DNA of 64,000 nt, from the NCBI RefSeq assembly GCF_005871165.1, contig NZ_SWKP01000005.1, positions 310,001-374,000 of the forward strand, given 5' to 3'. Positions within the stretch are counted from its first letter, which is position 1. Each line of letters begins with the position of its first letter. Origin of the DNA: Maricaulis alexandrii. GTDB taxonomy: Bacteria > Pseudomonadota > Alphaproteobacteria > Caulobacterales > Maricaulaceae. The position numbers were made by a program, and so were the translations under genes. This document shows positions 3,221 through 47,360 of this stretch, one piece after another. The notes below the pieces were generated by a model. That model was not told the DNA's origin and searched no databases. It was given only the letters and a program-made list of their open reading frames with translations.

Positions 3221-3242
3221 GCGGCAGGTCCCGAAGCCGGCG

Positions 3243-3674: not shown

Positions 3675-3726
3675 CCAAAACAATACGCCATTCATAGCAC
3701 GCTTTGCGTCTCTCGACGAGACATGT

Positions 3727-4338: not shown

Positions 4339-4339
4339 G

Positions 4340-6519
<2,180 letters not shown>

Positions 6520-8701: not shown

Positions 8702-9352
8702 ATGAGCCTTTGCCGCATTGCCTTGATCGACGACCACACGCTGTTCTCGGCGGCTTTCGGGACGCTGATGGGCCAGTTGCGGCCGGATTGCCGGATCGAT
8801 GTGTTCGACGATCCGATTGCCTTCCTGAAATCGGACGCCCATCCGTCTGACTATGATTTGTTCATCCTGGACCTGGTGATGCAGCGCATGAACGGGCTCA
8901 GCCTGTTGGCGAGCCTGCGGCAACAGGCGCCGCGCTGCCGGGTGCTCATGCTGTCCGGTGTGGGCACGGAGCCACCGATCTCGGACATGCGGCGGCTGGG
9001 AGCCAAGGGGTTCGTCCACAAGTCCGATGACTCCGAGGTCCTGCTGGGTGCCATTGATGCGATCCTCGCGGGCAAGACCTGTTTTCCCAGTCTGGATGCG
9101 GATCCGGAGGATGCAGATGAGGAAAGGGTCTATCTGACGCCGTCGGACCGGACCCTGCCGGGCCTGGCCCCCCGTCAGCTGGAAGTGCTCAACCTGATCG
9201 CCAATGGAGAGACCAACAAGGCGATTGCGGACCGGCTACAGATCTCCGAAAACACCGTCAAATCCCACCTCAAGGCGATCTTCGAAGCCCTGGGCGAGCG
9301 CACCCGGACCGGCTGTGTGCGAACGGCTCAGACGCTCGGACTGATCGGCTGA
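8702..9352 (+). CDS. LuxR/NarL-type response regulator
   Basis: A 216-residue two-component regulator. The N-terminal receiver has the acidic pair D10-D11, phospho-acceptor D57 in FILDLVM and the conserved Lys in GFVHKSD. The C-terminal LuxR-type HTH starts at LAPRQLEVLNLIANGETNKAIADRL (about residue 155). The recognition helix is in SENTVKSHLKAIFEALG. It is convergent with the hybrid histidine kinase, and the two coding regions overlap by 25 bp, so the kinase is a likely partner. DNA targets are unknown. Confidence 0.93.
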   Translation: MSLCRIALIDDHTLFSAAFGTLMGQLRPDCRIDVFDDPIAFLKSDAHPSDYDLFILDLVMQRMNGLSLLASLRQQAPRCRVLMLSGVGTEPPISDMRRLGAKGFVHKSDDSEVLLGAIDAILAGKTCFPSLDADPEDADEERVYLTPSDRTLPGLAPRQLEVLNLIANGETNKAIADRLQISENTVKSHLKAIFEALGERTRTGCVRTAQTLGLIG

Positions 9353-12509: not shown

Positions 12510-12690
12510 TCGGCCTTCCCCCTACCCTGTGCCGGCTCTTATGAAATCTGCGCGACCCACCCATTCGGGTGATTGATACTTGCGTTAAAACGAACCCCAA
12601 TCAACTTGAAAATTAACGCCTTTTTGCCGTGCGCGCGCAGCGTGCGCTCGTGCCTGTTGCGTGACGGGAAAGGGCGAGGGGGACAGTGAC

Positions 12691-31669: not shown

Positions 31670-31714
31670 CCGCGCGAGCACTCGCAGAAGGCCGCGTGAC
31701 ACAGGGGTAGGACC

Positions 31715-33364: not shown

Positions 33365-33427
33365 GGGCGGCCGCCGGGGGCGATGGCAACCAGACGGATC
33401 GTCTCCGCCCAACTGAGTGGACAAGCA

Positions 33428-33457
33428 GACCCCCGGCGCGATGATGTGCCGGGGGTC
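33428..33457 (+). terminator. Terminator-like stem-loop after the symporter gene
   Basis: A perfect 10-bp inverted repeat (GACCCCCGGC ... GCCGGGGGTC) with a 10-nt loop, followed by TCGTTGTTC, which is only moderately T-rich. It is well placed to end transcription of the glucan locus. Confidence 0.65.
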
Positions 33458-33664
33458 TCGTTGTTCGAGATAGGGTCGGCCCGGATCGAGACCGGCAGCC
33501 GTTTCAACTGATCACATTCAGGGTGGCGTGAATTGGGTGGCAAGCTGCGTGCAGCCGCCTGTGGCGCGCCCCTTGCGTGCGCTGCAGCAAACCTCCGGAC
33601 ATCTGCGCTGCAAACCGGTGAAATTCCAAGACCTGGAAGGGCTCTGCGCAGGAGTGGCTCTGCG

Positions 33665-33692
33665 TTGACTTTGACCCTTCCCCTCCTATGAT
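33665..33692 (+). promoter_or_regulatory. Predicted sigma-70-type promoter for the glycan operon
   Basis: TTGACT (33665-33670) and TATGAT (33687-33692) with a 16-bp spacer. The predicted transcription start near 33699 lies after an in-frame ATG at 33688. This argues that the glycosyltransferase starts later, at 33775. Confidence 0.65.
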
Positions 33693-33774
33693 CCGGACGT
33701 CTGACACGGGTCGCGCCTGGCGCGGAATTTCAGTCGACTTTCATGGGGGAAGGGCCGGTTTCGGCCCACAATCG

Positions 33775-35358
33775 ATGCGCTATCTAACGAGCCCGGCGGT
33801 CTGCGTCGCCATAATCGCTGTCTGGAGTGTGATCAGTTTCGGGCTTGTCTTCGGTGTTTATGCCGACCTGCCCATCCTGGACCACTACCTTTTCCGGCAG
33901 ACCCAGGTCGCAACAGTGGCTCGGGAAATTGCGCGCGGTGGACCTTGGCTGGACTACCGCATGCCGATTTTCGGCCCGCCGTGGACGGCACCGCTGGAAT
34001 TCCCGCTCTACCAGATTGCCATTGCGAAACTGTCAGGCGTGACGGGCATGCCCCTGGAGCTCAGCGGCCGGGTTGTCAGTGTCCTGTCGGGGATTGCAGT
34101 GCTAGTGGCGGCATGGCGCGCGACGATTTTGCTGAACTTCACCAAGCTGCAGCAGATTGCACTGGTCGCGATCCTCGCGGCATCGCCGATGTATTTCTAC
34201 TGGTCGCATACGGTCATGATCGAGATGTTCAGTCTCGCCCTGGCGATGGGTATGGCTCTTTGCGCTTTGGAATTCATTCAGCGTGACCGCTTGTGGCCGC
34301 TCGGCCTGGGTGTGGTTCTGGCCATTTTGGCGGCCCTCGCCAAGACGACTACTTTTGTGGTGTTTGCGGTCGCCATCATTGTGGGTTTCGGCCTGCATTA
34401 TCTGCGCTTCGCCTGGGAAAAGCGGACCCAGCCCGGGGCCGTGGTCGAGCGGGGCCTGCAGTGGATGAGCTATGGTCTGGCCCTGCTGGGGCCGGCGCTC
34501 CTGATCACATTCGTCTGGGTGGATTTTTCAGACACGATTAAAGCGGCGCATCCGCTCACGGAATTCCTGACGTCCGAGCGTCTGCATGATTGGAATTACG
34601 GCTCGAATGTCGAACGCGTCCAGTCCTTCTCCTACATCCTGATGCCGTTCCGCGGCGACAACCCGTCCATCCTGACCCAGGCCCTCGGTCAGATGTGGTG
34701 GCTGGCGGTCGTGCTGGCCCTGCCCGGGCTGGCGCTGGAAGTGCGTCGGCGTGGCTGGCTGATGGTCGCACTCGTTGCGGGTTTCGTCTGCGGCTTCATG
34801 ATTTTCGCGAACGTCTACGAGCACCACTACTATTACTGGGTGGCCAATGTCGTCTTCCTGCTTGGCATTCTGGCGATTGGCATCAGTGCCTCTCTGGAAG
34901 CGGTCATTGCCTGGTTGGCGGGCCGCAAGGGTGTTCCGGTCAAGCTGACGACATGGGCCGTGCCGGTCGTCGTGTCCGTTGCGCTGCTGGGTGGAGCCGC
35001 CTGGACCTGGCAGTCCTTCTTCTTCCAGCGATCCCTTCAGGGCTGGCCGGCGATGGAACGGGTCAGCGCCGCCGTGGCCGAGTATTCCGAGCCCGACGAT
35101 GTCGTCTACATCTTCGGTGTCGGCTGGAATTCCGTGGTACAGTATTTGTCTGACCGTCCGATGGTGATGGGGTACCAGCGGAGTATCGCCCTGGATTATG
35201 CCGAGACCGACGGACCGGCACCGGGCTTGCTGGTGATCTGCCGGGGCGAACGTGACCGTGAGGCCGAAATCCTGGCGAATCCGGCATTTGCCGAGCGCGG
35301 TTATGCCCAGTTCGAACGAGTAAATTTCTGCAATTTCTATGCGCCCGAAGGCGCATAA
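33775..35358 (+). CDS. GT-C fold (GT39/PMT-like) membrane glycosyltransferase
   Basis: A 527-residue polytopic membrane protein with about 11-12 hydrophobic segments and a small soluble C-terminal domain. The first extracytoplasmic loop has DLPILDHYLFRQTQVA. It resembles the acidic/RQTQ motif of GT39/ArnT-like enzymes that use polyprenyl-phosphate-linked sugars as donors. It heads an operon containing DprE1/DprE2-like and UbiA-like enzymes, so polyprenyl-phosphoryl arabinose is an attractive donor (inference). The start is uncertain: 33775 lacks a good ribosome binding site, but the ATG at 33688 lies within the predicted -10 box. The acceptor is unknown. Confidence 0.78.
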   Translation: MRYLTSPAVCVAIIAVWSVISFGLVFGVYADLPILDHYLFRQTQVATVAREIARGGPWLDYRMPIFGPPWTAPLEFPLYQIAIAKLSGVTGMPLELSGRVVSVLSGIAVLVAAWRATILLNFTKLQQIALVAILAASPMYFYWSHTVMIEMFSLALAMGMALCALEFIQRDRLWPLGLGVVLAILAALAKTTTFVVFAVAIIVGFGLHYLRFAWEKRTQPGAVVERGLQWMSYGLALLGPALLITFVWVDFSDTIKAAHPLTEFLTSERLHDWNYGSNVERVQSFSYILMPFRGDNPSILTQALGQMWWLAVVLALPGLALEVRRRGWLMVALVAGFVCGFMIFANVYEHHYYYWVANVVFLLGILAIGISASLEAVIAWLAGRKGVPVKLTTWAVPVVVSVALLGGAAWTWQSFFFQRSLQGWPAMERVSAAVAEYSEPDDVVYIFGVGWNSVVQYLSDRPMVMGYQRSIALDYAETDGPAPGLLVICRGERDREAEILANPAFAERGYAQFERVNFCNFYAPEGA

Positions 35359-35413
35359 ATCCGCTTGAACCCGTCGGGGTGTTGCGCCCCTGCGGAACAG
35401 AAAGACGCCTGAA

Positions 35414-36346
35414 GTGAGCCAGCAAGTCTTCATTACCGGTGCGGCCGGCCTGGTCGGTCAAAACCTGATCCCGGTGCTCAAGCGCAATCCGGATCTCAAA
35501 ATTGTCGCCGCAGACAAACACCCGACCAATACCGCGAAGCTGGCCGAGCTTCATCCCGATATCGAGGTGATCCAGGCTGATCTGGCCGAGCCCGGTGACT
35601 GGCAGGCCCGTCTGGCTGACAGCGACATGGCGGTCTTCCTCCATGCCCAGATTGGCGGACTGGATGAAGCCGAGTTCATTCGCAACAATGTCACGGCGAC
35701 CGAGCTCTGTCTGTCGGCCATGGAATCCGGCAAGACACGTTACCTGGTCCATATCTCCTCATCGGTTGTGAACTCGATGGCCGATGATTTCTACACGCGC
35801 AGCAAGACGGCCCAGGAAGCGGTCGTGGCGAAGACCGATATTCCGCACATCATCCTGCGTCCGACGCTGATGTTCGGCTGGTTTGACCGCAAGCATCTGG
35901 GCTGGCTGAAGCGCTTCATGGAGCGCATGCCGGTTTTCCCGATCCCGGGGGATGGAAAATATCTGCGCCAGCCGCTCTATGCCGGTGATTTTTCGGCCAT
36001 CATTGCGTCGAGCATTGCGTCCCAGAAAACCGGGGCGTTCAATATTTCCGGACAGGAAACGGTGGATTACATCGACCTGATCCGGGCGATCAAACGGGTC
36101 ACCGGCGCCGGCGCCCTGATCCTGAAAATCCCCTATGGTGTTTTCTGGCTCCTGCTGAAGACCTATGCCCTGTTCTCGAAGAATCCGCCCTTCACGACCA
36201 GTCAGCTGGAAGCCTTGGTGACGCCGGACGTGTTTGAAGTGATCGACTGGCCGACCCTGTTCAATGTGCCGGCGACCACACTCGAGGACGCGCTCACTGA
36301 AACCTTCCTCGATCCCACCTATTCCAAGGTGGAACTGGACTTCTAG
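35414..36346 (+). CDS. NAD-dependent epimerase/dehydratase (extended SDR)
   Basis: A 310-residue extended short-chain dehydrogenase/reductase. The Rossmann motif TGAAGLVGQNL is at the N terminus. The catalytic Ser/Tyr-Lys set is plausible as HISSSV and YTRSK, and an LRPTLMFGW segment follows as in nucleotide-sugar epimerases. The start is GTG at 35414. It lies between the GT-C enzyme and an FAD oxidoreductase. It probably modifies a sugar for the glycan made by this operon, but substrate and reaction (epimerase, dehydratase or reductase) cannot be told from sequence. Confidence 0.82.
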   Translation: MSQQVFITGAAGLVGQNLIPVLKRNPDLKIVAADKHPTNTAKLAELHPDIEVIQADLAEPGDWQARLADSDMAVFLHAQIGGLDEAEFIRNNVTATELCLSAMESGKTRYLVHISSSVVNSMADDFYTRSKTAQEAVVAKTDIPHIILRPTLMFGWFDRKHLGWLKRFMERMPVFPIPGDGKYLRQPLYAGDFSAIIASSIASQKTGAFNISGQETVDYIDLIRAIKRVTGAGALILKIPYGVFWLLLKTYALFSKNPPFTTSQLEALVTPDVFEVIDWPTLFNVPATTLEDALTETFLDPTYSKVELDF

Positions 36347-36364
36347 ACCCGGACAAATCCGCTC

Positions 36365-37648
36365 ATGACCCAGAAACTTCTTGTCCTCGGAGCCGGCCCC
36401 ATGGGTCTGGCGGCAGCCTATCAGGCGGTGAAGAAGGGCTACCAGGTCGAAGTCCTTGAAGCCGATGACCGTCCCGGCGGCATGGCGGCGCATTTCGACT
36501 TCGACGGTCTGTCGCTGGAGCGCTTCTACCATTTCTGCTGCCTGTCCGACACGGACACGCTGGAGCTGCTGGACGAGCTCGGCATGAACGGGGCCATGAA
36601 ATGGGTCTCCACCAAAATGGGCTATTATCTCGACGGCCGCCTGATCCGTTGGGGCGATCCGGTCTCGCTCCTGTTGGCCCCGGGCATCGATATCGTGACC
36701 AAGGTGCGCTATGGCATCCAGATGTTCACCTCGACCAAGCGGTCGGACTGGGAACGCCTGGACAAGATCAGCGCGCGTGACTGGTTCACCGGATGGTCGG
36801 GCGAAAAGGCCTATGACCGTCTGTGGCGGCGTCTGATGGAGCTGAAATTCTACGAACTGTCCGACGAGGTGTCAGCGGCCTGGATTTGGCAGCGCATCAA
36901 ACGCATCGGCAATTCGCGCAAGAGCCTTTTCGAGGAGCAGCTGGGCTATATCGAGGGTGGAACGGAAACCCTGATGAATGCCCTGGCCGCGGCGATCGAA
37001 GAAAAGGGTGGCACGATCCGCTATTCCAAGCCGGCAGCCGAATTCATCATCGAAGATGGTGCCATCAAGGGTGTTCGTGCTGCCGATGGCGAAGTGTTCG
37101 AGGCGGAGAATGTGATCTCCACCATCCCAACGCCCTATGTCCCGGCTCTGTTCGGCGAGGCGCATGCCGATCTGGCCGCGCCTTATGAGGCGATCCGGAA
37201 TGTCGGCGTGGTCTGTGTGCTTCACAAGCTGAAGAAGCCTGTGACCGACAATTTCTGGGTCAACATCTCGGATGCGAATTTCGAGATCCCGGGGATCGTC
37301 GAGTTTTCCAATTTGCGGCCGCTCGAGGATCATGTGGTGTACGTGCCCTACTACATGCCGCAAACGAACGAGAAGTTCGGTTGGTCGGACGAGGCCTTCA
37401 TCAATCAGAGTTTCGGATATCTGCAGTCGCTCAATCCCGAGATTGAGCGGGATGATCTCCTGGCCTCTCATGTCGCGCGGCTGCGCTATGCCCAGCCGGT
37501 TTGCGAGGTCGGCTTTGCGGACATGATCCCGGATCATGTCACGCCGGTCGCCGGCCTGCAGATCGCGGATACCTGCTTCTATTATCCTGAAGATCGGGGC
37601 GTGTCGGAAAGCGCGAAACTCGCGAAGAAGATGGTCGACGTCCTATGA
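36365..37648 (+). CDS. FAD-dependent amine-oxidase-fold oxidoreductase
   Basis: A 427-residue flavoprotein. The FAD motif is GAGPMGLAAAYQAVKKGYQVEVLEADDRPGGMA (quoted as two pieces: GAGPMGLAAAYQ and LEADDRPGGMA). A second conserved region YIEGGTETLMNAL and a C-terminal FAD contact ADTCFYYPEDRGVSES follow. It belongs to the amine oxidase/protoporphyrinogen oxidase/UDP-galactopyranose-mutase-like group, a branch commonly found in polysaccharide loci. It is coupled to the next gene by an ATGA overlap. A role in sugar-ring isomerisation or polyprenyl/sugar oxidation is possible; the substrate is unknown. Confidence 0.82.
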   Translation: MTQKLLVLGAGPMGLAAAYQAVKKGYQVEVLEADDRPGGMAAHFDFDGLSLERFYHFCCLSDTDTLELLDELGMNGAMKWVSTKMGYYLDGRLIRWGDPVSLLLAPGIDIVTKVRYGIQMFTSTKRSDWERLDKISARDWFTGWSGEKAYDRLWRRLMELKFYELSDEVSAAWIWQRIKRIGNSRKSLFEEQLGYIEGGTETLMNALAAAIEEKGGTIRYSKPAAEFIIEDGAIKGVRAADGEVFEAENVISTIPTPYVPALFGEAHADLAAPYEAIRNVGVVCVLHKLKKPVTDNFWVNISDANFEIPGIVEFSNLRPLEDHVVYVPYYMPQTNEKFGWSDEAFINQSFGYLQSLNPEIERDDLLASHVARLRYAQPVCEVGFADMIPDHVTPVAGLQIADTCFYYPEDRGVSESAKLAKKMVDVL

Positions 37649-38073
37649 CCGAGCTGTTTGTCAGTTTGCGAAAACTCTACGTCAGCTGGCAGTTCGTGCA
37701 GTTTCTGGCGGTGGGCGGCATCGCCGCCTTGTTGCACTGGCTCGCCCGGTTTGCATTCAACGTCTATTTCAGCTTCACCATCGCCGTTGTTCTGGCCTAC
37801 GCGGTCGGGATCCTGGTGGCTTTCACCCTGAACCGCCTCTTCGTCTTCCCCCAATCAAGCCGTCCGATGCATCAGGAGCTGACCCTGTTCACGATCGTGA
37901 ACATCGCGGCCTTTCCCTTCGTGATTGTCATTTCGATTGTATTGGGGCGGTATGTACTGACCGGGTTTCTGCCACCGGAGTGGGCCCATGCCATCGGTCA
38001 TGGCATTGGTGTTCTGTCCCCGGTTCTGGTGAATTTCGCCGTGCACAAATTGATTACGTTCAAGTCCGACTAG
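37645..38073 (+). CDS. GtrA-family membrane protein
   Basis: A 142-residue protein with four hydrophobic segments. It has the GtrA pattern FVQFLAVGGIAALLHWLARF at the start and AFTLNRLFVFP after TM2. GtrA proteins are proposed flippases for polyprenyl-phosphate-linked sugars, also including the decaprenylphosphoryl-arabinose flippase candidate of mycobacteria. Here it fits moving a lipid-linked sugar made by the downstream UbiA/DprE enzymes across the inner membrane to the GT-C transferase. Start overlaps the previous stop as ATGA. Confidence 0.9.
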   Translation: MTELFVSLRKLYVSWQFVQFLAVGGIAALLHWLARFAFNVYFSFTIAVVLAYAVGILVAFTLNRLFVFPQSSRPMHQELTLFTIVNIAAFPFVIVISIVLGRYVLTGFLPPEWAHAIGHGIGVLSPVLVNFAVHKLITFKSD

Positions 38074-38085
38074 GAAATCACGACT

Positions 38086-38745
38086 ATGGAAAATTTGGAT
38101 ATTTTGTACCGGCACCGGTTTGCGGAAAGCGATCTGCCGGAAAAGAACAAGATCTGGTCGGTCCTGTGCAGCTCATATTTCAACAAACTGGTCGGTCCGG
38201 ATGATACGGTGCTCGACCTTGCCTGCGGTTTTGGCGAGTTCATCAACAATATCAAGGCGAAGAAAAAGCTGGGCGTGGACATCAATCCCGACAGTCCCGG
38301 CTTTCTCAATGAGGACGTCACCTTCGTGCGGGCCCGGTCCGACGAGTTGGACGGTGTGGCCGATGACAGCGTCGATGTCGTATTCACCTCCAACTTTCTG
38401 GAACATCTGGAATCCAAAGCGGCGCTGATGGCAACGTTCAAGGAGATCAAGCGGGTACTCAAGCCGGGTGGCCGTTTCATCATCATGGGTCCGAACATCC
38501 GCTATGTGTACGACAAGTACTGGGATTTCCTGGACCACCACTTGCCGCTGTCGCATGTGACGATTGACGAAGCGCTGAACGTGGCGGGTTTCGAGACCGA
38601 GACCATCATCGGCCGCTTCTTGCCCTACAGCACGCGTTCGGCCCTGCCGAAGGCGAGCTGGATCATTTCTCTTTATCTGAAGCTGCCCTTCGCCTGGCCG
38701 CTTTTCGGCAAGCAATTCCTGGTCACGGCGCGCAAGCCGAGCTGA
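38086..38745 (+). CDS. Class I SAM-dependent methyltransferase
   Basis: A 219-residue methyltransferase with Rossmann motif I VLDLACGFGEF, motif II around LGVDINPDSPGF and motif IV DVVFTSNFLEHL. A short hydrophobic C-terminal segment (SWIISLYLKLPFAWPLFG) suggests membrane association. In the operon it lies between GtrA and the HAD-UbiA fusion, so it may methylate the glycan, its lipid carrier or a sugar intermediate. Nothing in the sequence identifies the target. Confidence 0.85.
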   Translation: MENLDILYRHRFAESDLPEKNKIWSVLCSSYFNKLVGPDDTVLDLACGFGEFINNIKAKKKLGVDINPDSPGFLNEDVTFVRARSDELDGVADDSVDVVFTSNFLEHLESKAALMATFKEIKRVLKPGGRFIIMGPNIRYVYDKYWDFLDHHLPLSHVTIDEALNVAGFETETIIGRFLPYSTRSALPKASWIISLYLKLPFAWPLFGKQFLVTARKPS

Positions 38746-38767
38746 GATGGCATCAGGGGCGTCTGAC

Positions 38768-40210
38768 ATGAACAGGATACCGGCCAATCTCCGGTCTCAT
38801 CCGCTTGTTGTCGATCTCGACAACACGCTGCTGAAAACGGACACGCTGGTGGAAAGCCTGATCACCTTGCTGTTCCGGTCTCCCCTGCAGCTGGTGGTTA
38901 CCCTGTTTGCCCTGTTCAAGGGGAGGAGCCATTTCAAGCAGGCCATGACCCGGGCCGTCACGCTTGATGTCGACACTCTGCCTGTGCGGGCCGACCTCAT
39001 GGCCTTCCTGGAGACTGCCAAGGCGGAGGGGCAAGCCACCTATCTGGTCACGGCGGCGGATCAGTCGATCGCGGACGCCGTGGCGCAACGTTTTGGGCTG
39101 TTCGCCGAGGCCAAGGGCTCGGAGCCGGGGCAGAACCTCAAGAGCGACCACAAGCGAGACTGGCTGAAGGCGCGCTTTCCGGACGGATATATCTATGCGG
39201 GCGACAGTTCGGCGGACCTGCCCGTCTGGAAGGACGCGGACGGGATCATTCTGGCGGGGGTCTCGGCATCAACACGGCGGTCGGTCGAGAAACTCGACGC
39301 GCCGGTCCTGGCCGAGTTTTCCGAGGCCGGAAATGTCCTGCGGGCTTGGGTGAAGGCCTTGCGCCTGCACCAGTGGGCCAAGAACCTCCTGGTATTCGTG
39401 CCGCTGCTGCTGAGCGGCCTCTATGTCGATCCCCGGACCATTATTGCGGCGGCCGAAGCCTTCGTGGGGCTCGGTCTGGCGGCGTCGGGGACTTATATCC
39501 TCAACGATCTGTCGGATCTGCCGGCGGACCGTTGCCACCGGTCGAAGTGTTTCCGGCCATTTGCGTCGGGACGTCTGGGTGTCGAACTCGGCCTTCTCGT
39601 GGCCCCCGTCCTGATCATTCTGGGACTGGTTCTGGCGGCTCTGGCCAGTCCTTTGGCTGCTGCAGCCCTGGCCTGCTATCTGGCCGTCACCCTGTCCTAT
39701 TCCTTCTCCCTGAAGCGCAAACCCCTGCTCGACGTTGTCCTGCTGGCGGTTCTGTTCACCCTGCGCCTGGTCATCGGCGCCGTGGCGATCGGGGCGGAGA
39801 CCTCCTACTGGCTCTTCACCTTCTCCATGTTTTTCTTCCTCTCCCTGTCGCTGGCGAAGCGGCATGTGGAAGTGGCCGCGGCCGAACCCGGGCAACCGAT
39901 CCGGGGCCGGGGCTATCGGGCTGATGATGCGCCCCTGACCCTATCACTGGGCGTGTCCAGCGCCATGGCGGCCATTGTCATCATCTGCCTCTACGTGATC
40001 GAGGATGCCTTCCCGGACGGGCGTTACGGCGCTCCGGAATTCCTGATGGCGGCCCCGGCCATGATCGGCATCTGGACCTTGCGCATCTGGCTGCTCGCGC
40101 ATCGTGGCGAGCTGGATGATGATCCGGTGAGCTTTGCCGTGAAGGACAAGATCAGCCTCGGTCTGGGTGTTATACTGGTGGCCATGTTTGCGGCCGCGAG
40201 TTTTCTATGA
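38768..40210 (+). CDS. HAD phosphatase-UbiA prenyltransferase fusion (polyprenyl-P phosphoribosyltransferase-like)
   Basis: A 480-residue two-domain protein. Residues 1-200 are a HAD hydrolase with nucleophile motif D16-L-D18-N-T20, motif II LVTAADQS and motif IV GDSSADLPVW. The rest is a UbiA-type integral membrane domain with about nine segments. Its prenyl-diphosphate/Mg site is N246-D247-LS-D250-LPA-D254, followed by SKCFRPFASG as in decaprenyl-phosphate phosphoribosyltransferases (Rv3806c type). In mycobacteria the following 5-phosphate removal uses a separate phosphatase; here the HAD domain could supply it (inference). The ATG at 38768 has AGGGG upstream; 38747 is an alternative. It couples to the DprE1-like gene by ATGA. 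Confidence 0.85.
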   Translation: MNRIPANLRSHPLVVDLDNTLLKTDTLVESLITLLFRSPLQLVVTLFALFKGRSHFKQAMTRAVTLDVDTLPVRADLMAFLETAKAEGQATYLVTAADQSIADAVAQRFGLFAEAKGSEPGQNLKSDHKRDWLKARFPDGYIYAGDSSADLPVWKDADGIILAGVSASTRRSVEKLDAPVLAEFSEAGNVLRAWVKALRLHQWAKNLLVFVPLLLSGLYVDPRTIIAAAEAFVGLGLAASGTYILNDLSDLPADRCHRSKCFRPFASGRLGVELGLLVAPVLIILGLVLAALASPLAAAALACYLAVTLSYSFSLKRKPLLDVVLLAVLFTLRLVIGAVAIGAETSYWLFTFSMFFFLSLSLAKRHVEVAAAEPGQPIRGRGYRADDAPLTLSLGVSSAMAAIVIICLYVIEDAFPDGRYGAPEFLMAAPAMIGIWTLRIWLLAHRGELDDDPVSFAVKDKISLGLGVILVAMFAAASFL

Positions 40211-41544
40211 CGTCTGACTTCCACCCTCAAACCGCCAAACGGTCCTGGGGGCGCGTGGTCGAAGCGCATCATGATGTCGCGCGACCAGGGTCGCCGGAGG
40301 CCGCTGCAGCGCTTTTGCCGGTGCTCCAGGATAGGGGCGAGACCGGGCTGCCGATCGGGTTGGGCCGCTCCTATGGCGACAGCAATCTCAATCCCGACGG
40401 TGCGCTGATCGAAACCGCGCGGCTCGATCATTATATCGAATTCGATCCGGATGCCGGCGTGTTGCGGGCCGAGGCCGGCGTGTCCCTGGATGATATTCTG
40501 CGCCTTATCGTGCCGCGGGGCTGGTTCCTGCCGACCACACCGGGCACGCGCTACGTCACGCTGGGCGGTGCGATTGCCAACGACGTTCACGGCAAGAACC
40601 ACCATCTGGCCGGCAGTTTCGGCTGTCATTTGCGCCGCTTTACTCTGGCCCGTTCGGATCGGGGCGTGTTGGACATTAGGCCGGACAGCGAACCGGACCT
40701 GTTTGCCGCCACGATCGGCGGTCTCGGACTGACCGGCCTCATCCTGGATGTGGAACTCCAGCTCGTGCCGATCCGTTCGGCCTGTATCGACCAGCATGTC
40801 GAGCCCTTGCGCAATGTCGACGCCTTCTTCGATATCGCCGAAGCCCGGGCGACCGATTATGAGCACACGGTTGCCTGGATCGATTGCACGGCGCGTGGCG
40901 ACCGCCTGGGCCAGGGCGTGTTTTCCAGCGGCAACTGGGCGGCCAGTGGCGGGCTGGAGCCGCATGCGGCCAAGGCCGGGCCGGCCCTGCCGGTGGATGC
41001 CCCGGGGTTTGCGCTCAATCCGCTGACGCTGCGGGCGTTCAACATGGTGTACCGGCGCGTTCAATTGCTCAAACCGCAAAATTCCCGGGTCCACTATGCC
41101 GGCTTCTTCCATCCGCTGGATTCCATCCGCGATTGGAACCGGCTCTATGGCGCGCGCGGCTTCTACCAGTATCAATCCGTGATCCCGTTCGACACGGCCC
41201 GCGAGGCCACGCGCGAAATGCTGGACCGGATTGCCCGGTCCGGACAGGGGTCCTTCCTTGCGGTCCTGAAAACCCTGGGCGATCGTCCGTCTCCGGGCCT
41301 GATGTCCTTCCCCATGCCGGGGGTGACATTGGCGCTGGATTTTGCCAATGCCGGCACCAAGACGCTTCAATTGATGGCCGAGCTCGACGCCCTCGTGAAA
41401 TCGTCCGGCGGCCGGCTTTATCCGGCCAAGGATGGCCGGATATCGGCCGACATGTTCCAGCAGGGCTATCCCGAATGGGAGCGCGTGGAGACGCTGCGTG
41501 ACCCGGCCCTTTCATCAGCCTTCTGGCGGAGAGTGACTTCATGA
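40207..41544 (+). CDS. dprE1: DprE1-like FAD-dependent polyprenylphosphoryl-ribose 2-oxidase
   Basis: A 445-residue VAO-family flavoenzyme. In mycobacteria DprE1 oxidises decaprenylphosphoryl-beta-D-ribose at C2. The N-terminal FAD domain has RSYGDSNLNPDG and GTRYVTLGGAIANDVHGKNHH. The latter nearly matches the DprE1 flavin segment, and H128 is equivalent to its conserved His. The C-terminal half includes YQSVIPF and KTLGDRPSPGLMSFPMPGVTL, also DprE1-like. Overlapping ATGA junctions with UbiA upstream and the SDR downstream indicate a coupled pathway. Confidence in family is high; the exact polyprenyl substrate is inferred. Confidence 0.9.
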   Translation: MTSDFHPQTAKRSWGRVVEAHHDVARPGSPEAAAALLPVLQDRGETGLPIGLGRSYGDSNLNPDGALIETARLDHYIEFDPDAGVLRAEAGVSLDDILRLIVPRGWFLPTTPGTRYVTLGGAIANDVHGKNHHLAGSFGCHLRRFTLARSDRGVLDIRPDSEPDLFAATIGGLGLTGLILDVELQLVPIRSACIDQHVEPLRNVDAFFDIAEARATDYEHTVAWIDCTARGDRLGQGVFSSGNWAASGGLEPHAAKAGPALPVDAPGFALNPLTLRAFNMVYRRVQLLKPQNSRVHYAGFFHPLDSIRDWNRLYGARGFYQYQSVIPFDTAREATREMLDRIARSGQGSFLAVLKTLGDRPSPGLMSFPMPGVTLALDFANAGTKTLQLMAELDALVKSSGGRLYPAKDGRISADMFQQGYPEWERVETLRDPALSSAFWRRVTS

Positions 41545-42311
41545 CCGAAACCCGTTCGCCCCGCAAAGTTCTGATCCTGGGGGCCCTGTCGGCGATGGCG
41601 GCGGCCACGGCGCGGCGCCTGGCCGCCCAGGGCGCTGAATTTGTCCTCACGGGTCGCAAGGCCGATGCCCTTGAACGTGAAGCAAATGATCTCAAGGCAC
41701 GCGGTGCCGGGTCCGTGTCCATCCAGGTGATCGATCTGCTGGAGACATCGCGCTGTGATGCGGTGATGGATCTGGCCGTCGAGGCGATGGGGGGGCTGGA
41801 CACGGTCCTCGTCTTCTACGGCATTCTGGGCGACCAGGCCCAGGCGGAGACCGATCCGCAGGAAGCCGAGCGGATCATCGCCGTGAATTATTCCAGTGCG
41901 GTACACTGGGTCATGGCGGCCGCCCGGGCCCTCGAGGCTCATGCGGGGTCTTCCGGCGTGCTGTTGACGGCGAGTTCGGTGGCGGGTGATCGCGGCCGAC
42001 GTTCCAATTTCGTCTATGGCTCGGCCAAGGCGGGCCTGTCCGTGCTGATGCAGGGGTTGGCGCACAAATGGGCGGCACAGGACAACGCACCGCGTGCGGT
42101 CAATCTGAAGCTGGGTTTTGTTGATACGCCGATGACGGACGGGATCGAGAAGGGCGGTCCGCTCTGGGCCAAGCCGGACGATATCGCGGCCATCGCCGAG
42201 CGGGCCCTGGTGAAGGGTGGGCCGAATGTCTACGCACCCTGGTTCTGGCGTTTCATCATGTTGGCCATCCGCGTGACGCCGTTCTTCGTGTTCAACAAGG
42301 TCAATCTCTAG
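41541..42311 (+). CDS. dprE2: DprE2-like SDR (2-keto reductase)
   Basis: A 256-residue short-chain dehydrogenase. With DprE1 it would complete the C2 epimerisation of polyprenylphosphoryl ribose to arabinose by reducing the 2-keto intermediate with NAD(P)H. Features seen are the N-terminal Rossmann segment LILGALSAMAAATARRLAAQGA, a catalytic Ser in TASSVAGDRG, the YxxxK as YGSAK and a hydrophobic C terminus (FWRFIMLAIRVTPFFVF) as in DprE2. The Gly-rich motif is unusual, with Ser/Met/Ala in place of expected glycines. The start overlaps the dprE1 stop codon (ATGA). Confidence 0.87.
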   Translation: MTETRSPRKVLILGALSAMAAATARRLAAQGAEFVLTGRKADALEREANDLKARGAGSVSIQVIDLLETSRCDAVMDLAVEAMGGLDTVLVFYGILGDQAQAETDPQEAERIIAVNYSSAVHWVMAAARALEAHAGSSGVLLTASSVAGDRGRRSNFVYGSAKAGLSVLMQGLAHKWAAQDNAPRAVNLKLGFVDTPMTDGIEKGGPLWAKPDDIAAIAERALVKGGPNVYAPWFWRFIMLAIRVTPFFVFNKVNL

Positions 42312-42324
42312 GCCGGTTGGCAGC

Positions 42325-43059
42325 ATGGCGCGGGCACATCACTGGCTCACCTGGTTCGAACGCAACAAGGTCTGGATCCTTTGGGGCACCCTGATATTTG
42401 TGGCCCTTGCCGGATTTGTCCGCCGTGACTGGATCGCGGGCCATCTGCTTGGCGGCTGGGCCGAAGCAACGCCGGATCCGGTCCTGCTGCTTGCGGTGTT
42501 CGTCTGGTTCTTCGTGTCGCAACTGGTAATCCTGCCTTCAGGAACCCTGTCCATCCTGATGACGGGCGCTCTTTTCGGCTGGTGGGTCGGGCTTCTTTAC
42601 TATGTCGCCATGTTCCTCTCCGGCCAGCTGCTCCATCTTCTGGCGCGGCAGGACCGCGGTGCCGCGCGCCAGGCCCTCGCCCGGGCGCTGCCGGAAAAGC
42701 TGCGTCACGGTGTGTTGTGGCGTCTGATGGAGCGCGCAGAGCGCCGCGGCATCGCTACCACCGTCATGCTACGCCTCCTGCCAATCGCGCCGTCGGCCAT
42801 CAGCCCGCTGATTGTGGGATCCATTGGGGGAGCGTCCGGCCGTCTGGCGGTGGGGACCCTGCTGTCAGGTTGGGCCCGGCCCGTTTCGATTGCTTTGGTC
42901 GGGCAGGCTGCCGGGCACGCCCTACTGGCGCCTGAGCGTCTGATGTCTGAAGTGGCGCAGCCGGTTCTGTGGGTGGCCCTGGTTTCGCTGGGTCTCAGCT
43001 CGCTTGCTGCCTACCTCATCGTGCGCCCGCTTCCGCAGCGTGAACCGCCATCCCGCTGA
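42325..43059 (+). CDS. TVP38/TMEM64 (VTT/DedA-like) membrane protein
   Basis: A 244-residue protein with about six hydrophobic segments and the VTT (DedA-like) core. Visible parts are ILPSGTLSILMTGALFGWWVGLLY, then RLLPIAPSAISPLIVGSIGG. Some DedA/VTT proteins move polyprenyl phosphate or phospholipids across membranes. As the last gene of the glycan operon, 13 bp after the DprE2-like gene, it could recycle the lipid carrier (inference). It is convergent with marR, and their stop codons are adjacent. Confidence 0.83.
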   Translation: MARAHHWLTWFERNKVWILWGTLIFVALAGFVRRDWIAGHLLGGWAEATPDPVLLLAVFVWFFVSQLVILPSGTLSILMTGALFGWWVGLLYYVAMFLSGQLLHLLARQDRGAARQALARALPEKLRHGVLWRLMERAERRGIATTVMLRLLPIAPSAISPLIVGSIGGASGRLAVGTLLSGWARPVSIALVGQAAGHALLAPERLMSEVAQPVLWVALVSLGLSSLAAYLIVRPLPQREPPSR

Positions 43060-43515
43060 TTATTCTTCCAGCTGTTTCCAGATGCGTTTCATCACGGCCA
43101 TGAAAACCTCTTCGGGCAGATCCCCGAGCGCGTTGCGTATCAAGGCTTCGTGAGACTCGATCTCCGTCTTGATCGCCGCAACGGTCTCAGCGCCCGAAGC
43201 GTTCACGCTCAGACCGTGTGACCGGCCGTCCACGGGCTCTCGCTCGATCAGCCCGCGGTCATCAAGCCGTCCGATCAGGGGGGCCATATTGGCGCTGCGG
43301 ATGTCGAGCATGCGGCCCACCTCGCTTTGGCGAATGCCCGGATTGGCTTCGATCACCAGAAGCACGGAGGCTTCGGTCGGCCGCAGGTCCAGCGCGGCGA
43401 ACTGCCCGGCGAGCCGGGACATGCCGGCCGTGGAGGCGCGCCGGAGATTGTAGCCGAGATTGTTCTTGAACGGGTCCGCTTTCAAGCCTTGCGCTCCCAC
43501 ACTGAGATATGGCAT
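43060..43515 (-). CDS. MarR-family regulator (hydroxycinnamate-type)
   Basis: A 151-residue MarR repressor. The winged helix covers TEASVLLVIEANPGIRQSEVGRMLDIRSANMAPLIGRLDDRGLI, with recognition helix in SANMAPLIGRL. It is followed by wing PVDGRSHGLSV and a C-terminal dimerisation helix. It is divergent from the vdh-ech-CoA ligase operon and a perfect 15-bp palindrome lies between them. In Sphingobium (FerC) and Rhodopseudomonas (CouR), MarR proteins in this context respond to hydroxycinnamoyl-CoA thioesters. The same ligand class is likely here (inference). The ATG at 43515 was chosen; an earlier ATG at 43545 lies beyond the operator. Confidence 0.9.
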   Translation of the reverse strand: MPYLSVGAQGLKADPFKNNLGYNLRRASTAGMSRLAGQFAALDLRPTEASVLLVIEANPGIRQSEVGRMLDIRSANMAPLIGRLDDRGLIEREPVDGRSHGLSVNASGAETVAAIKTEIESHEALIRNALGDLPEEVFMAVMKRIWKQLEE

Positions 43516-43528
43516 TAAAGAATAAACA

Positions 43529-43543
43529 GCTATATAATATAGC
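43529..43543. promoter_or_regulatory. MarR operator between marR and vdh
   Basis: GCTATATAATATAGC is a perfect palindrome with 7-bp arms and a single central base. It contains TATAAT, a possible -10 element for the vdh side. Similar sites recur at 47420 and 47443 before the TonB receptor. Confidence 0.75.
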
Positions 43544-43577
43544 AATTAGTCCAGAGCGGACAGGGAGGAAATAGGCG

Positions 43578-44975
43578 ATGAATTTTCAGCGCGTCAATCC
43601 GATTACTGGCGAAATCGCAAGTTCGGCCAAGGCGATGAGTGTCGAAGAGGCCTGTCAGGCCGTTGACCGGGCACAGGCTGCCTTCCCGACCTGGTCCGCC
43701 ATGGGGCCGAATGCGCGGCGCGCCGTCCTGATGAAAGCGGCCGACGAGCTGGATGCCCGCGCGGATGATTTCGTTGCCGCCATGATGGGTGAAATCGGGG
43801 CCACGGAAGGCTGGGCGCGCTTCAACCTGATGCTCGCAACCGGCATGGTCCGTGAAGCAGCCGCCCTGACCACCCAGATCGAAGGCCAGGTCATTCCTTC
43901 GGACAAGCCGGGCTGCGTCGCCATGGCCCTGCGCGAGCCAGTGGGTGTTCTGCTTGGAATCGCGCCCTGGAATGCGCCCATCATTCTGGGTGTGCGCGCC
44001 GTGGCCGTGCCTTTGGCTTGCGGTAATTCCGTAGTGCTCAAGGCCTCCGAAACCTGCCCGCGCACGCATGAGCTGATTGTCGAGGCCTTCGCGGCCTCCG
44101 GCATGCCGGAGGGCACGCTGAGCGTGGTGACGAATGCGCCGGAGGATGCCGCCGAAATCGTCGGGGCGCTGATCGACCATCCGTCCATCCGCCGCATCAA
44201 TTTCACCGGCTCGACCGCTGTGGGCCGGATCATCGCCAAGCGCGCGGCCGAACATCTCAAACCCGTGCTGCTGGAACTCGGGGGCAAGGCGCCCTTCCTG
44301 GTGCTGGAAGATGCCGATCTGGACGAGGCCGTGAAGGCTGCCGCCTTCGGTGCTTTCATGAACCAGGGCCAGATCTGCATGTCGACCGAGCGTATCATTG
44401 TTGTGGATGCCGTGGCGGACGCCTTCGCCGAGAAGTTCGCCGCCAAGGCCAAGACGATGGCGGCGGGCGATCCACGGGATGGCAACACGCCCCTCGGCGC
44501 CGTTGTGGACTCCAAGACAGTCGACAAGGTCAACGGGCTGATCGCGGATGCAACGGGCAAGGGCGCAAAGGTCATTGCCGGTGGTCCCGCCGACAGTGTT
44601 GTCATGCCGGCGACGATTGTAGATGGCATCACGGACGCGATGTCGCTGTATCGCGATGAGAGTTTCGGGCCGGTGGTGGCCCTGATCCGTGCCCGTGACG
44701 AGGCCGATGCCATCCGGATCGCGAATGACAGCGAGTATGGCCTTTCGGCGGCCGTTTTCACGCGGGATGCGACGCGCGGTCTGGGTGTTGCCCGGCAGAT
44801 CCAGTCCGGCATCTGCCATGTGAACGGACCGACCGTGCACGACGAGCCGCAAATGCCGTTCGGGGGAGTCCGGGCGTCCGGCTATGGCCGCTTTGGCGGC
44901 AAGGCCGGCATCGATGCCTTCACCGAGCTGCGCTGGATCACCATCGAGACCCAGCCCGGCCACTTCCCGATCTGA
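43578..44975 (+). CDS. vdh: Vanillin/aryl-aldehyde dehydrogenase
   Basis: A 465-residue NAD(P)-dependent aldehyde dehydrogenase that should oxidise vanillin or 4-hydroxybenzaldehyde to the acid. Catalytic C267 (QGQICMSTERI) and general base E233 (LELGGKAP) are spaced 34 residues apart as in ALDHs. The cofactor segment FTGSTAVG and the PWNAP region are also present. The sequence pattern around the Cys is the vanillin-dehydrogenase type. It is the first gene of the operon with hydratase-lyase and CoA ligase, which fixes the aldehyde as the product of side-chain cleavage. It is controlled from the MarR operator just upstream. Confidence 0.92.
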   Translation: MNFQRVNPITGEIASSAKAMSVEEACQAVDRAQAAFPTWSAMGPNARRAVLMKAADELDARADDFVAAMMGEIGATEGWARFNLMLATGMVREAAALTTQIEGQVIPSDKPGCVAMALREPVGVLLGIAPWNAPIILGVRAVAVPLACGNSVVLKASETCPRTHELIVEAFAASGMPEGTLSVVTNAPEDAAEIVGALIDHPSIRRINFTGSTAVGRIIAKRAAEHLKPVLLELGGKAPFLVLEDADLDEAVKAAAFGAFMNQGQICMSTERIIVVDAVADAFAEKFAAKAKTMAAGDPRDGNTPLGAVVDSKTVDKVNGLIADATGKGAKVIAGGPADSVVMPATIVDGITDAMSLYRDESFGPVVALIRARDEADAIRIANDSEYGLSAAVFTRDATRGLGVARQIQSGICHVNGPTVHDEPQMPFGGVRASGYGRFGGKAGIDAFTELRWITIETQPGHFPI

Positions 44976-44994
44976 TTTCAAGAAGGACAAGATA

Positions 44995-45870
44995 ATGAGC
45001 AAACAATCCGCGACGGCCGCCAAAGCCGCCAATACCGGTGCGGAACGTGCCGAGGAAGACACCGTTGCCTATGACGTCCGTGACGGGATTGCCTGGGTGA
45101 AGTTCAATCGTCCTGAGAAGCGCAACTGCATGAGCCCCAAGCTCAACCGCCAGATGATGCGCGTGCTGGAAGCTCTGGAATTCCGGGATGATGTCGGGGT
45201 TCTGGTCCTGACGGGCGAAGGCTCGGCCTGGTCGGCCGGCATGGATCTCAAGGAATATTTCCGCGAGAACGAAGCCAAGGGCCTGGGCGCTGTTCGTCAG
45301 TCGCAGCGGGAATCCTATGGCTGGTGGCGTGCGCTTCGCTGGTACCAGAAACCGACGATCGCCATGGTCAATGGCTGGTGTTTCGGCGGCGGCTATGGTC
45401 CGCTCTATGCCTGTGACCTGGCGTTTGCCGACGAGTCTGCGCAGTTCGGACTGTCCGAGATCAATTGGGGTATTCTCCCCGGTGGTGGCGCAACCAAGGT
45501 CGCCACCGATCTGATGCCGTTCCGCAAGGCCATGTATCACGCCATGATGGGTGAGAATGTGGACGGCAAGACGGCTGCCGAATGGGGGCTGGTCAATGAA
45601 GCCCTTCCGGCCGACCAGCTGGAAGCCCGCGTGACCGAAGTTGCAAAGGTCCTGCTGGAGAAAAATCCGGTCGCGCTCAAGGCGACCAAGGATGCCATCC
45701 GGCGTGTCCGCGAAATGACCTATGACAATGCTGAGGACTTCCTGGTCCGGGCACAGGAAGCCGCCAATTCCTTCGACAATGACGGTCGCAAGGAAGGCAT
45801 CCGTCAATTCATTGACGAGAAGTCCTACAAGCCGGGTCTGGGGGCCTATGACAAGTCCCGCCAGTCCTGA
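44995..45870 (+). CDS. ech: Hydroxycinnamoyl-CoA hydratase-lyase
   Basis: A 291-residue crotonase-fold enzyme that hydrates feruloyl- or 4-coumaroyl-CoA and cleaves it to vanillin or 4-hydroxybenzaldehyde plus acetyl-CoA. Hallmarks of HCHL are RPEKRNCMSPKLNRQM, AWSAGMDLKEYFRE, the oxyanion region MVNGWCFGGGYGPL and catalytic E155 in FGLSEINWGI. The start at 44995 has AGGAC upstream. It follows vdh by 19 bp and precedes the CoA ligase by 2 bp. The N-terminal 25 residues (Ala/Thr-rich) are a non-conserved extension. Confidence 0.95.
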   Translation: MSKQSATAAKAANTGAERAEEDTVAYDVRDGIAWVKFNRPEKRNCMSPKLNRQMMRVLEALEFRDDVGVLVLTGEGSAWSAGMDLKEYFRENEAKGLGAVRQSQRESYGWWRALRWYQKPTIAMVNGWCFGGGYGPLYACDLAFADESAQFGLSEINWGILPGGGATKVATDLMPFRKAMYHAMMGENVDGKTAAEWGLVNEALPADQLEARVTEVAKVLLEKNPVALKATKDAIRRVREMTYDNAEDFLVRAQEAANSFDNDGRKEGIRQFIDEKSYKPGLGAYDKSRQS

Positions 45871-45872
45871 CC

Positions 45873-47360
45873 ATGACGGCGATCAGTGACTTCATCGCGC
45901 TGCAGGCGATGCGGCGGCCGGATGTACCGGCTGTCGCTGACCTCGCAAGCGGGAAATCCTGGACCTATGCGGGGCTGGACCGTTTGACGGGACAGCTCGC
46001 GCAAGCCCTCCTGGACCGGGGACTGGAGCCAGGTGACCGTTTGGCCGTGCTGGCCAGGAACCGCGGCGAGCTGGTCGCGCTCCAGCATGCCTGCGCGCGC
46101 ACCGGGGTTATTTATGTTCCGCTGAACTGGCGCCTGTCTGCACCGGAATTGGCCGACCTCGTGGAGGACTGTCAGCCCGGCCTTTTGCTGGGCGATGACC
46201 AGCTGGCCGCGGCGGGGCTGGAGGGCGGTGATCTGGCCGATTTCATCGCGGCTTCCGCCGAACTCGCTCCGGTCGCCGGTGGCGAGGCGGACCCTGACCG
46301 GGTCTCCCTCATCCTCTACACGTCGGGGACGTCGGGGCGCCCCAAGGGGGCGATGCTGTCCGAGGCCAACCTCACTGAGACAGCCATCAATTTTTCCATT
46401 CTCGGGGATGTCACCGCATCGAGTGTCTTCCTGTGCGACGCGCCAATGTTCCATGTCATCGGTCTCGTGACCAATGTCCGCCCGGTCCTCATGCGAGGGG
46501 GATGTTGCCTTGTTTCTGATGCCTTCATCCCTGCTCGCACCCTGTCCCGGTTGGGGGATCCCGATCTGGGGGTGACCCACTATTTCTGCGTTCCCCAGAT
46601 GGCAGCCGCCCTGAGGGCCGAACCGGACTTCAACCCGGCATCCCTTCGCAAGCTGACCGGCCTGTTCACCGGCGGGGCGCCACACCCGGCCCCGAATATC
46701 GAAGCCTGGCTGGATGACGGAATTTCCATCGTGGACGGTTTCGGGATGAGTGAGACCGGTACAGTGTTCGGAATGCCGATCGACCGTGAACTGATCCGGC
46801 AACGGGCCGGCTCGGCCGGTCAGGGCACGCCGCGAATTCGCAGCCGGATTGTGGGTGCTGATGGTGCGGACTGCCCGGTCGGTGAGGCGGGAGAGCTTTG
46901 GCTCAAAGGGCCCGGCGTTTTTTCCGGCTATTGGCAGCGGCCGGATGCCAATGCCGAGGCTTTCGTCGATGGCTGGTTCCGGACCGGAGATATAGCCCGG
47001 GCCGACGCCCAGGGCTTTCACTGGCTCGTGGACCGCAAGAAGGACATGTATATTTCCGGGGGTGAAAATGTCTTCCCGGCCGAGGTCGAGTCGGTGCTTG
47101 TCGCGCATCCGGACATCGCCGAATGCGCGATTGTCGGTGTCGGGGATGAGCGCTGGGGCGAGGTCGGGCACGCCTTTCTGGTGCTTCGCCCGGAAAGCGG
47201 TTGCGATGCGGACTCAGTTCTCGCCTGGCTGGATGGCCGCATCGCCCGATACAAATTACCCCGCCACGTCAGCATTCTGGAGGCTCTGCCGCGCAATGGA
47301 GCGGGGAAAATCCTCAAGCGCGAACTGCAGACCTACCCGATCCCCGGGGCCAGTCGCTGA
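45873..47360 (+). CDS. fcs: Feruloyl/coumaroyl-CoA ligase (AMP-forming)
   Basis: A 495-residue member of the ANL superfamily. Core motifs are YTSGTSGRPKGAML (ATP loop), DGFGMSETG, WFRTGDIA, DRKKDMYISGGENVFPAEVE (hinge) and catalytic Lys in RNGAGKILKREL. Operon position after vdh and ech identifies a hydroxycinnamate as the likely substrate, giving the CoA thioester cleaved by Ech. By sequence alone it could also activate other aryl or medium-chain acids. Confidence 0.88.
   Translation: MTAISDFIALQAMRRPDVPAVADLASGKSWTYAGLDRLTGQLAQALLDRGLEPGDRLAVLARNRGELVALQHACARTGVIYVPLNWRLSAPELADLVEDCQPGLLLGDDQLAAAGLEGGDLADFIAASAELAPVAGGEADPDRVSLILYTSGTSGRPKGAMLSEANLTETAINFSILGDVTASSVFLCDAPMFHVIGLVTNVRPVLMRGGCCLVSDAFIPARTLSRLGDPDLGVTHYFCVPQMAAALRAEPDFNPASLRKLTGLFTGGAPHPAPNIEAWLDDGISIVDGFGMSETGTVFGMPIDRELIRQRAGSAGQGTPRIRSRIVGADGADCPVGEAGELWLKGPGVFSGYWQRPDANAEAFVDGWFRTGDIARADAQGFHWLVDRKKDMYISGGENVFPAEVESVLVAHPDIAECAIVGVGDERWGEVGHAFLVLRPESGCDADSVLAWLDGRIARYKLPRHVSILEALPRNGAGKILKRELQTYPIPGASR

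Follow-up and report, generated by a model that had tools for sequence, protein, structure and literature searches.

The stretch of DNA analyzed here (hereafter the window) comprises 64,000 nucleotides of Maricaulis alexandrii (contig NZ_SWKP01000005.1, positions 310,001 to 374,000), correctly recognized from its letters alone as a marine alphaproteobacterium. It contains nine + strand genes, reaching from 33688 to 43059, that are separated by intergenic gaps of at most 55 bases and include three 4-base overlaps. Their order is candidate GT-C, short-chain dehydrogenase/reductase (SDR), flavoprotein, GtrA, methyltransferase, UbiA, DprE1, DprE2 and VTT. The sixth to eighth genes encode a HAD phosphatase-UbiA phosphoribosyltransferase fusion (a predicted polyprenyl-phosphate ribose synthase by Pfam, NCBIfam and Protein Data Bank (PDB) matches; 487 residues, 38747..40210), a DprE1-like FAD oxidase (2-OH to 2-keto; 445 residues, 40207..41544) and a DprE2-like SDR reductase (2-keto to arabino; 256 residues, 41541..42311). 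An earlier reading of the sequence (the original prediction) interpreted these three genes as a lipid-linked arabinose pathway; this pathway reading is well supported, but the novelty claimed for it is not, and the other six genes were overlooked. Above all, these include an extended SDR of the epimerase/dehydratase family (PF01370, E 1.3e-15; 310 residues, 35414..36346) and an FAD-dependent oxidoreductase of the PRK07233 family with a phytoene-desaturase-like fold (NF005560; 427 residues, 36365..37648).

All nine genes lie inside an accessory island (33365..43059, the right edge being approximate) that was delimited by DNA alignment with a sister genome (G001, locus L165). In that genome the flanks of the island are 165 bases apart, as compared to ~9.7 kb in the window: positions 3-2854 of the sister sequence align with window positions 30512-33364 (84%), and positions 3020-6000 align with 43147-46138 (81%), the alignment resuming at 43147. 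The flanking genes, by reading a transporter upstream and an aldehyde dehydrogenase downstream, are ~600 bases apart in the sister genome, and their proteins are 92% (upstream) and 89% (downstream) identical to those of the window. This empty site indicates that the nine genes form one accessory unit. The PRK08238 family, to which the fusion belongs, is found above its cut-off in 6 of the 61 genomes searched and in 2 of the 19 from the genus, some of which are incomplete; as 17 of these 19 genomes are without the fusion, insertion of the island in the M. alexandrii lineage is more likely than loss elsewhere. A second genome, from the window's genus (G014), carries the nine-gene unit minus the methyltransferase, set among other genes. 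With a G+C content of 0.56-0.66, the nine genes do not stand out sharply from the window as a whole (0.63).

The HAD-UbiA fusion and the DprE1- and DprE2-like enzymes

The original prediction began the fusion at 38768, which is an in-frame methionine at codon 8, whereas the open reading frame itself starts at 38747. The protein combines a HAD domain (Pfam HAD, E 1.7e-6, residues 23-160) with a UbiA domain (PF01040, E 2.4e-19). It scores 573 bits against NCBIfam PRK08238 (cut-off 351) and 154 bits against the decaprenyl-phosphate phosphoribosyltransferase model, for which the cut-off is 207 bits. The structure of the M. tuberculosis enzyme DPPRS is a match to the UbiA half (8j8j, E 3.5e-25), in agreement with the predicted phosphoribosyltransferase type. 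As described in the portions of PMC11127046 (Kelly et al. 2024) covered here, a HAD-UbiA fusion makes farnesyl-phosphate-ribose from phosphoribosyl pyrophosphate (PRPP), as judged by nuclear magnetic resonance and mass spectrometry, and mutation of the HAD aspartate in Citrobacter ORF15 yields the 5-phosphate form plus a little dephosphorylated product. The ORF15 residue numbers (D18, N247, D248, D251, D255, R366 and E369) hold in a Citrobacter protein (locus L016) that is 44% identical to the window's fusion, and they align with D23, N253, D254, D257, D261, R372 and E375, respectively. The window's HAD domain has its predicted nucleophile in D23-L-D25, both aspartates being conserved in the L016 protein, with GDSSAD at residue 152, and its UbiA half retains the N253-D254-x2-D257-x3-D261 motif named by the original prediction as well as R372 and E375. 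Removal of the 5-phosphate by the HAD domain, also proposed at the outset, is published for ORF15, and the conserved residues support the fused domain as a likely built-in 5-phosphatase in Maricaulis.

Both the fusion/DprE1 and the DprE1/DprE2 junctions are 4-nucleotide overlaps. The best PDB match of the DprE1-like protein is DprE1 (4aut, E 2.9e-71) and that of the DprE2-like protein is DprE2 (21gq_C, E 9.6e-28); with open reading frames, overlaps and family and PDB scores far beyond chance, the three coupled genes are real. Neither enzyme reaches its curated NCBIfam equivalog cut-off (DprE1, 354 of 500 bits; DprE2, 162 of 250), and both are therefore relatives rather than curated mycobacterial orthologues. 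The window's DprE1 contains HGKNHH at residue 128, as had been noticed previously, and K408 within LYPAKD (404-409), which we take to be the substrate lysine; its Ala376 aligns with a cysteine of the M. smegmatis DprE1 chain, presumably the one targeted by benzothiazinones. In DprE2, YGSAK at residue 159 supplies the tyrosine (Y159) of the YxxxK motif. Together, the family and PDB matches and the conserved ORF15-tested residues agree with a lipid-linked ribose-to-arabinose logic, and the cassette very probably assembles lipid-linked arabinose at the membrane, in the manner of tuberculosis bacteria. This core pathway, including a HAD-UbiA fusion in a Gram-negative, is already known: the fusion was characterized by Kelly et al. 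2024, who, in the parts of PMC11127046 covered, also describe DprE1/E2 homologues in candidate systems of arabinofuranose (Araf)-containing glycans in Gram-negatives.

Sequence, fold and distribution of the SDR-flavoprotein pair

In the extended SDR, Y127-x3-K131 and S115-S117 (SSS motif) are invariant in 12 of 12 aligned rows. The flavoprotein scores 502 bits against NF005560 (cut-off 252), and its structure model (predicted local distance difference test (pLDDT) score of 88.6) most closely resembles phytoene desaturase 5mog (TM 0.83) and protoporphyrinogen oxidases. UDP-galactopyranose mutases (UGM) come further down the list of similar folds (from rank 25, TM 0.74), and the UGM Pfam family is absent from the seven Pfam families matched at E up to 0.001. 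Invariant arginine and lysine residues in a 12-row alignment include R115, K125, R126, R177, R180, R185, R318, R372 and R411, positions that would suit a phosphate-bearing substrate.

To describe the distribution of the pair, the flavoprotein was sought whatever its neighbors. It was found in 9 of 200 genomes of the order, in 9 of 398 genomes of a phylum sample (the window's included) and in 8 plasmid records. The 22 cases considered, all of at least 44% identity, are made up of 8 from the order (among them the window's, which is counted once), 7 from the phylum sample and 7 from plasmids; a plasmid record and a phylum genome could be one species, and three distant paralogues with other contexts (29-32% identity; G104, G364 and Embleya) were excluded. 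The SDR shares a locus with the flavoprotein in all 22 cases and adjoins it in 21, one gene intervening in a single locus of the phylum sample (L136); with the three distant paralogues included, 22 of 25 loci contain the SDR. The fusion accompanies the flavoprotein in 21 of the 22 loci and DprE1 plus DprE2 in 20, the exceptions to the full set being a locus that ends with its contig (G356) and a genome in which DprE1 and DprE2 are side by side on another contig (G124). Among named fusion loci, which are the best 80 of 233 relatives and several of which end at contig ends, the flavoprotein occurs in 11 of 31 with DprE1 and in none of 49 without it. A quick tree of 105 fusion proteins implies at least 12 changes of flavoprotein state; among the 9 independent pairs that lie on supported branches, an average of 8.8 have the SDR changing along with the flavoprotein (median p 0.004).

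The six genes of the cassette recur across Alpha- and Betaproteobacteria and on plasmids. Plasmid cassettes, whose hosts are Rhizobium, Agrobacterium, Burkholderia and Rhodobacteraceae, have the order UbiA-DprE1-DprE2-SDR-flavoprotein-GtrA in 7 of 7 records; they have six genes in common with the window, but the order differs. Agrobacterium salinitolerans pDG3-1a (L149), a plasmid typed as conjugative, carries the full six-gene cassette. When viral contigs were scanned with the flavoprotein alignment, no relative was confirmed among the 16 candidate stretches obtained. Two distant PRK07233 paralogues were seen in other surroundings: one (31%) shares its locus with an exosortase (L137:9356-11035 and 4576-5973; PF09721, E 2.7e-55), and the other (32%) adjoins a family 2 glycosyltransferase (L108:7595-10340).

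A proposed route to a modified lipid-linked pentose

We consider it probable that the island encodes a polyprenyl-phosphate-Araf pathway in which two enzymes make a second modification, followed by GtrA-mediated flipping and GT-C-type transfer to a surface glycan. In the cytoplasmic part of this route, from PRPP to a polyprenyl-phosphate pentose, the UbiA half of the fusion would carry out step 1 and the fused HAD domain would take off the 5-phosphate (step 2), after which DprE1 and DprE2 would invert C2 to produce polyprenyl-phosphate-arabinofuranose (steps 3 and 4). For the window these four steps are predicted from homology, steps 1 and 2 being published for a Citrobacter relative and steps 3 and 4 for mycobacteria. 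Step 5, as genetic linkage and fold suggest, would be a further modification of the lipid-linked arabinofuranose by the extended SDR together with the phytoene-desaturase-like flavoprotein, and the methyltransferase may methylate the sugar. Family and position point to GtrA as the protein that would flip the lipid-linked donor (step 6) and to the polytopic GT-C-like protein as the one that would move the sugar to a periplasmic surface glycan (step 7), with the VTT protein possibly aiding carrier recycling. The plasmid gene order reads like a reaction order, and for this reason the second modification of the lipid-linked pentose is placed before flipping. The other six island genes, above all those of the pair, suggest that the end product is likely not plain arabinofuranose. 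Candidates for the second modification are a C3 inversion, a ring change or another oxidation; that the pair specifically inverts C3 of polyprenyl-phosphate-arabinofuranose to give polyprenyl-phosphate-lyxofuranose is a tentative suggestion that we think improbable as it stands.

Several observations weigh against a second modification of the sugar and against the scheme around it. None of the three distant flavoprotein paralogues (29-32% identity) has the SDR or the fusion nearby, and one locus (L086) has the SDR with DprE1/E2 while the flavoprotein is not in the locus. The link between flavoprotein and DprE1 is not significant when relatedness is allowed for (median p 0.25). Over 183 residues, the window's SDR shares 22% identity (E 0.001) with the ORF13-type epimerase encoded at Citrobacter locus L018, a distant match with which an ORF13-like role as a Ribf-to-Xylf epimerase by direct homology is unsupported. 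Isoprenoid desaturases are among the fold relatives of the flavoprotein, a hint that its target could be the lipid tail rather than the sugar. Moreover, the GT-C assignment of the 556-residue protein is weak, and all of the enzyme activities assigned to the window's proteins are predictions.

Among other explanations, the one that survives best is that the donor is plain arabinofuranose, as in the Araf systems of Kelly et al. 2024, and that the SDR and flavoprotein serve another step in surface-glycan synthesis, such as the making of a nucleotide sugar. DprE1 is indeed common without the flavoprotein, as seen in 20 of the 31 named fusion loci with DprE1 (in one of which, L086, the SDR is present alone) and in 11 of the 19 DprE1 genomes of the order. 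We nevertheless regard this explanation as unlikely, as the pair is in or beside a cassette with the fusion, DprE1 and DprE2 in 20 of 22 cases, while the genes outside the cassette, compared by eye, vary from case to case. The pair could instead modify the isoprenoid tail, for example by reducing or desaturating one unit, so as to reserve a carrier for the lipid-linked sugar. That phytoene desaturase and protoporphyrinogen oxidases have the solved folds nearest to that of the flavoprotein speaks for such a role, but none of the 49 named fusion loci that lack DprE1 contains the flavoprotein, and these need a carrier as well; although this contrast is not significant on the tree, we hold a role on the tail to be distinctly unlikely. 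Flavin-adduct chemistry of the UDP-galactopyranose mutase kind is suited to sugar-phosphate substrates, and the flavoprotein might use it as a mutase that converts a lipid-linked furanose to the pyranose on which the SDR then acts. The presence of these mutases among the fold matches is consistent with this idea, to which we nonetheless give very little weight, as the UGM Pfam family is not matched and desaturase and oxidase folds score higher. Finally, the notion that the UbiA protein belongs with the prenyltransferases of heme O, quinone or archaeal-lipid synthesis, outside any lipid-linked pentose pathway, draws on superfamily-level matches of about 35 bits or fewer to heme O (35 bits), ubiquinone (19 bits) and geranylgeranylglycerol-phosphate models, and it is already contradicted by the scores for PRK08238 and decaprenyl-phosphate phosphoribosyltransferase and by the adjoining DprE1/E2 genes, the model scores ruling out a heme O or quinone identity.

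Membrane proteins, acceptor and related systems

The first gene of the island (33688..35358) encodes a polytopic protein of 556 residues, a candidate GT-C glycosyltransferase that would perform the acceptor-specific last step. This assignment draws on topology (11 hydrophobic segments in a crude scan) and on a PMT_2 match (E 0.0091) under the Pfam cut-off; relatives are present in L013, L014 and L102, and a structure model (pLDDT 48, with three sequences in the alignment) was unusable. Of the three components expected of such a locus, the synthase and the GtrA-family protein (37645..38073; PF04138, E 2.7e-14), a candidate flippase of the lipid-linked sugar, are clear, and a GT-C is suggested by the sub-threshold match and topology. 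Many other cassettes have polytopic proteins of 550-800 residues nearby; when 10 of these, the window's included, were compared with Pfam, 2 gave sub-threshold PMT_2 matches and 8 matched no glycosyltransferase family. The diversity of these putative transferases would fit differing acceptors. The methyltransferase, predicted to use S-adenosylmethionine (38086..38745; PF08241, E 8.2e-14), is an optional cassette member with relatives in L103 (52%), L136 (51%) and L150 (47%). The VTT/DedA-domain membrane protein (42325..43059; PF09335, 34.5 bits, cut-off 33.9) has the same position in L013 and L014 and may function in carrier-lipid recycling; the part of PMC10127716 covered places undecaprenyl-phosphate flippases among DedA/VTT proteins. 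The acceptor would be a surface glycan. Neighborhood annotation is available for five of the seven plasmid records, the other two bearing none, and four plasmid cassettes are near polysaccharide genes (rhamnan-type glycosyltransferase, pseudaminic acid genes, WxcM-like), which are not among the annotations of the stretch shown for the Burkholderia record. Downstream of the island, window positions 43060-47360 contain a MarR-type regulator followed by an aldehyde dehydrogenase, an enoyl-CoA hydratase and an AMP-binding enzyme (the last three named by reading), perhaps for hydroxycinnamate catabolism.

Among the closest known systems is that of Citrobacter youngae O1/O2 (Kelly et al. 2024), which consists of the PRP-PPPRS fusion ORF15, the flippase ORF14, the GT136 enzyme ORF12 and the epimerase ORF13. 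It has in common with the window a HAD-UbiA fusion with the tested residues; its lipid-linked pentofuranose, flippase and GT-C have predicted or candidate counterparts in the window. However, Citrobacter O2 makes xylofuranose (Xylf) via ORF13, and Citrobacter loci L016 and L018 yielded no DprE1/E2 match; the candidate flippase is GtrA-type in the window, as opposed to an SMR/EamA-family candidate in L018; and the flavoprotein, methyltransferase and VTT protein of the window go beyond the Citrobacter system. The L018 locus (8962-13789, Citrobacter sp. Cu233), whose gene order and lengths suggest an O2-type cluster, has a 124-residue flippase candidate that matches SMR/EamA families and not MATE, and its SDR is 42% identical to its L021 relative. 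A Gallionellaceae cluster (L086:9753-16994) combines the fusion, DprE1, DprE2 and SDR with two polytopic proteins of 538 and 621 residues.

In the mycobacterial decaprenylphosphoryl-arabinose pathway (Rv3806c, Rv3807c, DprE1 and DprE2), the phosphoribosyltransferase and DprE1/E2 are homologous to those of the window, whereas the phosphatase is separate and unrelated to the HAD domain that is fused to UbiA here. To our knowledge, the SDR-flavoprotein pair is not known in mycobacteria, where no search aimed at it was made. The separate mycobacterial phosphatase had been cited by the original prediction, in agreement with the parts of PMC11127046 covered, as had the use of noeCHOP in Nod-factor arabinosylation, which accords with the portions of PMC2443382 and PMC5080398 covered. 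These latter genes, noeCHOP in Azorhizobium and noeCNHOP in Rhizobium sp. IRBG74, are likewise lipid-linked D-arabinose genes of alphaproteobacteria; IRBG74 has a separate candidate phosphatase (noeN) and the Nod factor is the acceptor, nod genes not having been sought in the window's genome.

The covered parts of PMC11127046 mention that Xanthomonas and Bacillus have more elaborate systems with multiple candidate epimerases or GT-Cs, but contain no description of the island's genes beyond the fusion and DprE1/E2; they also state that no carbohydrate structure solved so far contains lyxofuranose (Lyxf). Nothing useful came from text searches for glycans that bear the pentoses considered here. 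No report of the SDR-flavoprotein-GtrA combination was recognized in the literature searched, although the cassette may still be reported, for example among the clusters of figures S11 and S12 of Kelly et al. 2024, and no described role for the SDR and flavoprotein was found in the literature covered. If the pair edits a lipid-linked pentose, it would add chemistry to the decoration of periplasmic glycans, and an unusual surface sugar would be predicted in culturable marine and soil bacteria. Should the lyxofuranose reading be true, Maricaulis, Azospirillum, Rhizobium and others would bear an unrecognized surface sugar.

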